Assembly (NCBI GenBank): GCA_018667335.1
Contig: JABIVD010000061.1
Span: 1 to 64,000, forward strand
Direction of reading: 5' to 3'
Origin: Rhodospirillaceae bacterium
Lineage (GTDB): Bacteria; Pseudomonadota; Alphaproteobacteria; UBA6615
DNA length: 64,000 nt
Position 1 is the stretch's first letter. Each line of letters begins with the position of its first letter. A program made the translations under genes and the position numbers. Positions 62,237-64,000 of the stretch are shown here, piece after piece. The notes below the pieces were generated by a model that saw nothing but the letters and a program-made list of their open reading frames with translations, was not told where the DNA came from and did no database searches.

Positions 62237-62890
62237 ATGAAATTATTCGGCTACTGGCGCTCGCTCGCCGCCTTCCGCGTGCGCATCGCGCTCAACCTCA
62301 AGGGCCAGGCCTTCGAGGTCGTCTCGACCGACCTGATCAAGGGTGAGCAGTTCGATCCCGAGTATCTCAAGATCAATCCCCAAGGCGTCGTACCGGCGCT
62401 GGTCACCGATGACGGGACCACGCTGACCCAGTCGATGGCGATCCTCGAATATCTCGATGAGGTCTATCCCGAGCCCGCACTGCTGCCGGCCGATGCCGCA
62501 GCCCGCGCCCGGGTGCGCGCGCTGTGCATGATCCTGGTCGCCGACATGCATCCGCTGGTGGTGCCGCGTATCCGCAAATACGTTACCCAGGATCTGGGCC
62601 ACAGCGAGGAAGAGCTCGGCGCGTGGATTGGCAACTGGACGACCAAGGGCCTCGAAGCGATCGAGAAGCATCTGGCCGAGGACGGCCATTCGGGCACCTA
62701 TTGCGAGGGCGACCAGGTGACCATGGCCGACCTGTGCCTGGTGCCCCAGATCGGCGCCGCAGTGCTGTTCAAGATCCCGCTCGACGCCTATCCGAACTGC
62801 CAGCGCATCTTCAAATCCTGCATGGAGCTACCAGCGTTCTTCGACGCGCGGCCCCAGGCCCAGCCGGACTTCCCCGAAGAGATGAAGTAG
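62237..62890 (+). CDS. Zeta-class glutathione S-transferase (maleylacetoacetate isomerase-like)
   Basis: 217 residues. LFGYWRSLAAFRVRIALNLK resembles the zeta-class SSCSxRVRIAL motif, but only one Ser remains. INPQGVVPALVTDDGTTLTQ and SMAILEYLDEVYPEPALLP bind glutathione. GTYCEGDQVTMADLCLVPQI is the C-terminal helix motif. The usual reaction is isomerisation of maleylacetoacetate, with glutathione as cofactor; no tyrosine-degradation genes are near, so substrate is not sure. GGGAG precedes ATG 62237. Confidence 0.88.
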   Translation: MKLFGYWRSLAAFRVRIALNLKGQAFEVVSTDLIKGEQFDPEYLKINPQGVVPALVTDDGTTLTQSMAILEYLDEVYPEPALLPADAAARARVRALCMILVADMHPLVVPRIRKYVTQDLGHSEEELGAWIGNWTTKGLEAIEKHLAEDGHSGTYCEGDQVTMADLCLVPQIGAAVLFKIPLDAYPNCQRIFKSCMELPAFFDARPQAQPDFPEEMK

Positions 62891-62898
62891 AGGAAGTC

Positions 62899-62920
62899 GG
62901 GCGGCTCAGCCGCCCTTCTT
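62899..62920 (+). terminator. Terminator hairpin over the DsbA-like gene's stop codon
   Basis: GGGCGGC at 62899-62905 pairs with GCCGCCC at 62909-62915 around TCA, and TTCTT follows. The loop TCA is the minus-strand TGA stop (62906-62908) of the converging DsbA-family gene, so GST transcription would end inside that gene's tail. Confidence 0.55.
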
Positions 62921-63529
62921 CTGCGCTCCCGCCGAATCCATCAGCTGTTCCAGCACTTCGTAGGGCTGGGCGCCGACGACGCCCTTGGCATCGGCCACAT
63001 AGGTCGGCACGCCGGTGACGCCATACTGGCGGGACTTCTCCCAGTCGGCATCGATCGCGTCCGAGAACGTACGCTTCTCGAGCACCTCGCGCGCGGCCGC
63101 GCCATCGAGCCCGACCCCCTCGGCGATCTCGACCAGGGTATCGGCATCACCGATGTTCCGGCCCTCGACGAAATAGGCCTCGTAGAGCTTCATATGGATG
63201 GCGTCGCCGCCTTCCTGGGTGTCGGCCCACTTGCCGAGTTCCTGGGCGAGCCGGCTGTTGTAGGTGTGGGTGCGCTTGCCATAGGGCAGGCCTTCCTCGG
63301 CCATCCGCGCCTTCATGCTCTCATACATGCCGTCGAGATCGACGTCGCGGCCGGCGAACAGGGCTTCGAGGGTCTGGCCGTCGAGCGGCGTGTCGGGGTG
63401 CAGCGGGAAGTGCACGGTCTGGATGTCGACGTCGTAGGCCTGGCGGAGTTTTTCAACACGCACGGTGCTGAGGTAACACCAGGGTCAAACGTAGTCGGCG
63501 AAAACCTCAAGGGTGACGGGATCGGACAT
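62906..63529 (-). CDS. DsbA/FrnE-family oxidoreductase, probable selenoprotein (UPWC active site)
   Basis: 207 residues if TGA at 63485-63487 is read as selenocysteine. From ATG 63529 (AAGGA upstream) the protein reads MSDPVTLEVFADYV, then TGA, then PWCYLSTVRVEKLRQAY. In homologues this position is the first Cys of CPWC. The cis-Pro segment GVTGVPTYVADAKG, LYEAYFVEGRNIGDADTLVE and the helical insert are intact, and the frame stays open to TGA 62906. A hairpin at 63453-63471 fits a bacterial SECIS. Without Sec decoding, translation would stop at residue 14; the downstream GTG at 63463 would give a protein lacking its active site. A nonsense mutation or base error cannot be excluded. Confidence 0.8.
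63453..63471 (-). promoter_or_regulatory. Candidate bacterial SECIS stem-loop
   Basis: In the mRNA, counting from the base after UGA, bases 14-20 (UCAGCAC) pair with bases 26-32 (GUGUUGA): seven pairs, one being G.U. The five-base loop is CGUGC, at bases 21-25. Known bSECIS elements have an apical loop about 16-37 bases after UGA with a G in the first two loop positions; both hold here. The element lies within the coding region, as is normal in bacteria. An outer CCUGG/CCAGG pairing (bases 2-6 with the CCAGG about 40 bases on) could close it further. Confidence 0.6.
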
Positions 63530-63644
63530 GGATATATTCCTTCGTTTGAGACAGTCGACATCATAGCAGAGAGGGCCCTGCACGCGATAACATTGCGGGG
63601 AGATGCCTCATACAAAGCCCCCTGAAGCCCCCTGGAGCCACACC

Positions 63645-64000
63645 ATGACCGAACACACAATTCCGTCGCGCAAGCTCACCCATGACGGGGTGCGCGCCCT
63701 GATCGATGCCGCCGTCGCCAAGGCCGACGAGATGGGCGTGCCCATGGGCATCGCGATCGCCAATGACGGCGCGCGGATCGTCGGCTACCTGCTGATGGAC
63801 GGCGCGCGAATTCTGGCGCAGGACTCCGCCAGCGCCAAGGCGATGACGGCGGCGAGCCACCGCATGCCCACCCATGCGATCGACTATAATATCGGGATGG
63901 GCCTGTCGGTCTCGACCCAGGGCAAGGTGCTGCCGCTGAGGGGCGGCGTGCCGATCATCATCGACGGCTATTGCGTCGGCGGCATCGGCTGCGGGTCGGG
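63645..64000 (+). CDS. GlcG/HbpS-family (DUF336) protein, partial at window end
   Basis: The first 118 residues are visible and the frame is still open at 64000. It starts MTEHTIPSRKLTHDGVRALI and continues with AVAKADEMGVPMGIAIANDG, then SASAKAMTAASHRMPTH. LPLRGGVPIIIDGYCVGGIG is the family hallmark (usually GGxPxxxxGxxxGAIGVSGG). Members bind heme or cobalamin or serve in diol and glycolate pathways; the role here is not known. ATG 63645 has GGAG seven bases upstream. The in-frame ATG at 63603 has no properly spaced site. Confidence 0.85.
   Translation, partial: MTEHTIPSRKLTHDGVRALIDAAVAKADEMGVPMGIAIANDGARIVGYLLMDGARILAQDSASAKAMTAASHRMPTHAIDYNIGMGLSVSTQGKVLPLRGGVPIIIDGYCVGGIGCGS

Follow-up and report, generated by a model that had tools for sequence, protein, structure and literature searches.

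A DsbA/FrnE-like selenoprotein gene with UGA at the first active-site position in an alphaproteobacterial genome

Selenocysteine (Sec)-containing DsbA-like proteins with a UxxC motif (COG2761) have been listed since 2005, when nine sequences were identified from the Sargasso Sea (PMC1088965). The GOS data yielded 63 sequences of a family termed "DsbA 1," which was commoner in marine samples (PMC2398784), and by 2016 Sec DsbA-like proteins were recorded from 41 organisms (PMC5029168). A 2026 review lists a "DsbA-like protein form 1" and describes the functions of these families as largely uncharacterised (PMC13188914). In 2006, FdhA was the sole selenoprotein family known in Alphaproteobacteria (PMC1794560). 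The gene described here lies on the minus strand of a 64,000-nt stretch of a Rhodospirillaceae contig (the window), and a preliminary description had proposed it as a new selenoprotein. Its status as a genuine selenoprotein gene is strongly supported by our results; its novelty is not upheld, the gene being an additional member of the COG2761 UxxC family, whose DsbA-like selenoproteins were indeed known from metagenomic surveys, as that description also said and as the Sargasso Sea and GOS papers document.

The reading frame (positions 62906 to 63529, minus strand) is as first proposed. It runs from ATG 63529 through a TGA at 63487-63485, which is followed directly by CCC TGG TGT (PWC) and 192 open codons, and ends at a TGA stop at 62908-62906, for a total of 207 codons plus the stop. 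The internal TGA, codon 15, is the only one in the frame and falls on the first Cys of a CPWC motif. That placement, originally read from the motif, agrees with alignments to Cys-containing homologues and with a match to Pfam DSBA (PF01323; residues 6-197, E 2.2e-37 with Cys placed at the UGA position), such that the protein combines PF01323 with a UxxC motif. AAGGA occurs 8 nt upstream of the ATG as part of a likely ribosome binding site (AAGGAA, 63537-63542), in line with the site noted earlier, and purine-rich motifs precede the ATG in most relatives. The codon for Cys18, the resolving residue of UPWC (63476-63478), is invariant in two homologue alignments, and besides Sec15 the protein has no other Cys. 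V174-P175 is invariant in an alignment of 44 sequences that includes Cys homologues; Pro175 (63005-63007), in a GVPT loop, is expected to be the cis-proline of thioredoxin folds. Codons 28-200 are under purifying selection relative to five congeners (pN 0.05-0.09, pS 0.24-0.41). The frame is not a product of chance, because the Pfam match is near full length and because the TGA and the downstream hairpin described below recur in every close relative.

No NCBIfam model scored above its own cut-off for this protein, which makes it plausible that automatic annotation loses the active site of this gene. The gene is solitary in the window, flanked by a convergent GST-family gene (62243-62890, plus strand) and a divergent HbpS-like gene (63603-63998, plus strand). 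A codon-score scan of the window for other genes with an in-frame TGA gave no convincing second case, although the scan is insensitive, having ranked the real gene low. No close relative of the gene was found among PLSDB plasmids.

The genome contains the machinery that Sec insertion requires. The search for it, suggested in the preliminary description, recovered selA, selB, a tRNA-Sec (anticodon UCA), and a fused selD in this same genome, all on contig C5. The selA gene (584 bits) directly precedes selB (C5:154932-156803, 466 bits), and the tRNA-Sec gene (71 bits) is located some 7 kb beyond selB (C5:154932-164086), closely followed by selD (L023:304-2535). The latter encodes a 743-aa fusion with an N-terminal Pyr_redox_2 (pyridine nucleotide-disulfide oxidoreductase) domain ahead of the SelD domains. 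In several alphaproteobacterial groups selC is nested inside selB (PMC8124441), whereas here it is downstream. The formate dehydrogenase alpha-like genes of the genome (contigs C50, C37, and others), the best match included, have no in-frame TGA. Formate dehydrogenase, usually the main client of the Sec machinery, is thus apparently not a selenoprotein in this genome, and one or more other proteins, the FrnE-like Sec protein among them, would have to account for the machinery being kept.

The codon comparison among homologues that had likewise been suggested shows the UGA to be conserved. Among 60 relatives searched, every genome with the gene start has a single in-frame TGA at codon 15, and their full-length copies are 60-92% identical. 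We also retrieved loci from named genomes with the motif YNSRLAQE and with DYVCPWC, which if anything favors Cys forms: the best 80 comprise 77 with TGA, two with TGT, and one with TGC, and less similar loci may include more Cys forms. By title, these loci come mostly from Alphaproteobacteria but also from Beta-, Gamma-, and "Delta"-proteobacteria and Rokubacteria. Of 386 evenly sampled alphaproteobacterial genomes (completeness of at least 90%, gene called at E < 1e-50), 16 contain the gene, with TGA in all 16; selB is present in 63 of the 386, and all 16 gene-bearing genomes are among these 63 (hypergeometric p about 4e-14, counting genomes as independent and ignoring kinship). Three metagenome-assembled genomes (MAGs) with the TGA gene, G002 (87% complete), G034 (77%), and G417, gave no selA, and the first two gave no selB either; these absences likely reflect genome incompleteness. 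The gene is also present in public MAGs titled Klebsiella pneumoniae (L094) and Rhizobium sp. (L125). In the tree the former pairs closely with L111, a sequence from a betaproteobacterial MAG of Lake Baikal, and the Klebsiella title, at least, therefore seems mistaken.

The UGA aligns with a Cys in distant FrnE homologues and in three close orthologues (L088, L116, and L118). The genomes of these three orthologues have no selA above the family cut-off. The three occupy two separate places among the Sec sequences in the tree, an arrangement that fits replacement of Sec by Cys after loss of the machinery. We infer the direction of replacement, the tree being unrooted.

The element that would specify Sec at this UGA is a SECIS-like hairpin (63453-63471, minus strand) that begins 13 nt 3' of the TGA, with a 7-bp stem (UCAGCAC/GUGUUGA) and the apical loop CGUGC (63460-63464). 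It had been noticed in the sequence from the start; we find it within the predicted minimum free energy structure (-14.4 kcal/mol, z -2.55) and, in relatives, both kept and covarying. The consensus is UCAGYAC-CGKGC-GURUUGA; of 80 distinct sequences, 74 form all seven pairs and none forms fewer than six. The loop G (position 25) never varies, and the base after it is U or G, giving the conserved downstream hairpin with a G-containing small apical loop that is typical of bacterial SECIS elements. Pair 21-31 is C-G in 19 sequences and U-A in 66, without exception among the 85. On the tree, each of the two positions has switched at least seven times, although only three of the independent coupled switches lie on well supported branches, too few for a sign test to reach significance. 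Each such switch couples a silent Ser codon change (AGC/AGT) to replacement of Val by Ile or the reverse four codons on, a coupling that selection on the protein alone would not produce. A second covarying pair, 19-33, is A-U, G-C, or U-A; L082, L104, and L114 carry the compensatory changes (G-C or U-A for A-U), and L082 also has a C-U mismatch at the neighboring pair. Synonymous differences in nine-codon windows are lowest at codons 19-27 (0.18 versus 0.45 overall). Single-sequence folds are weak for a few members, and in L042 one pair is broken and the sequence by itself adopts another fold. None of 10 Cys homologues keeps six or more hairpin pairs, and the three close Cys orthologues are without the hairpin.

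These observations bear on whether the UGA might be something other than a Sec codon. The simplest such account is that of a pseudogene, in which an ordinary Cys-type frnE has acquired a nonsense mutation or a sequencing error. A single base change turns TGC or TGT into TGA, and the assembly is a draft of 62 contigs, but an accident would not be shared by every gene-bearing relative and by 77 of the best 80 named-genome loci, assembled in many different projects, nor would it leave the downstream gene under purifying selection and the hairpin constrained. We reject this account on the conservation of the UGA and regard it as exceedingly improbable, in keeping with the earlier argument that a random nonsense mutation was an unlikely source of this codon.

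It is also very improbable that the UGA is a true stop and that translation really begins at GTG 63463, giving a DsbA-like domain devoid of the catalytic motif. The mechanical listing of reading frames does show exactly this shortened gene, a 185-aa frame, and so bears out the expectation that the gene would be truncated past its active site. Against it stand the 14 codons upstream of the UGA, which are protein-like and conserved (pN < pS), the RBS-like motif before ATG 63529, the invariant PWC directly after the UGA, and a predicted fold that takes in the strand at residues 5-11 as well as the helix following the motif; on these grounds we reject the GTG start. Leaky reading of UGA occurs in bacteria, and a near-cognate tRNA, such as that for Trp or Cys, could provide readthrough by a route other than Sec. 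We give this route very little credence and reject it, given the strict co-occurrence of the gene with selB, the SECIS-like hairpin with its invariant loop G, and the presence of Cys in place of Sec in genomes without selA above the cut-off.

We are therefore highly confident that the gene encodes a thioredoxin-fold DsbA/FrnE-like selenoprotein, probably cytosolic and active in thiol/disulfide exchange, with Sec inserted at UGA codon 15 by way of the hairpin and SelB. The ribosome would meet the UGA at codon 15, and the mRNA hairpin just downstream would recruit SelB with Sec-tRNA(Sec), placing selenocysteine at 63485-63487 as the N-terminal nucleophile of U-P-W-C. Sec15 would then attack disulfides and Cys18 would resolve the mixed bond, with formation of a Sec15-Cys18 selenenylsulfide. 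The enzyme probably reduces or isomerises disulfides, its substrates being oxidised proteins of the cytosol or small disulfides. The cytosol is its probable location because Cys18 is the only Cys and because the protein starts straight into its first strand. By analogy with known families we infer both Sec insertion itself and the cytosolic location, redox direction, substrate, and physiological role. Gene neighborhoods offer no functional hint, no conserved arrangement being found and the commonest neighbor cluster occurring near only 9 of 84 loci.

A wider reading is possible, and we put it forward tentatively, as somewhat short of probable. The gene may belong to a broadly distributed FrnE subfamily whose normal and probably ancestral state is Sec, with Cys secondary, following loss of the Sec machinery, and the Sec protein may be among those that keep the machinery under selection where formate dehydrogenase lacks a TGA. 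The family has been known chiefly through metagenome surveys, and the results place its catalytic residue firmly as Sec across numerous uncultured alphaproteobacteria and several further groups, in which normal gene calling would lose the active site. They also offer a clear comparative example of Cys taking the place of Sec in genomes without the Sec machinery.

Comparison with characterized proteins points to FrnE as the nearest match. The structure was modelled with 17 close sequences (pLDDT 67) and that model was replaced by one built with 44 (pLDDT 95.8). Its best structural match is Deinococcus radiodurans FrnE (DR_0659; PDB 5cnw, 5co3, 5coh, 5cp1, 5xwh) with a TM score of 0.89 and 34% identity, and two of these entries (5cp1/5cnw) are also the closest solved sequences (E about 1e-27). 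Judged by sequence and fold, the protein has the features of the FrnE subfamily (cd03024), namely a DsbA-like thioredoxin domain, a CPWC-type motif, and FrnE as its closest fold. The two proteins are alike in fold, in the CPWC/UPWC motif, and in having no evident signal peptide; they differ in that Sec here replaces Cys at the first active-site position and in that our protein is without the C-terminal CX4C. The D. radiodurans enzyme acts in the cytoplasm as a disulfide reductase/isomerase and has been tied to tolerance of cadmium and oxidative stress, and its CX4C is thought to regenerate the active site; the motif is found in many but not all FrnE members and is lacking in that of S. roseofulvus (PMC8945050). 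Without it, the oxidised form of our protein must be regenerated another way, for instance, perhaps, via thioredoxin or glutathione.

SCO1869 of Streptomyces coelicolor (PDB 3gl5) shares the DsbA/FrnE-like fold (TM 0.87) at about 32% identity and is not a selenoprotein as solved. A weaker match is given by 2-hydroxychromene-2-carboxylate (HCCA) isomerase and kappa-class GST (PDB 2imd, 1r4w), which are alike in their DsbA-type fold (TM about 0.72) at 15-19% identity. Known HCCA isomerases and kappa GSTs use glutathione at a Ser and not at a CxxC pair. A protein of Mamiellophyceae algae is likewise named as a Sec-containing FrnE oxidoreductase, and Sec insertion there is eukaryotic (PMC6627142). 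The closest correspondence is with the published Sec DsbA-like UxxC family (COG2761/PF01323), with which this protein shares the PF01323 match, the UxxC motif with Sec in first place, a bacterial SECIS element whose small apical loop contains a G, and a marine occurrence; compared by description, it likely belongs to the same exact subfamily as the published DsbA-like form 1 (AACY01178397, NIP15863.1).
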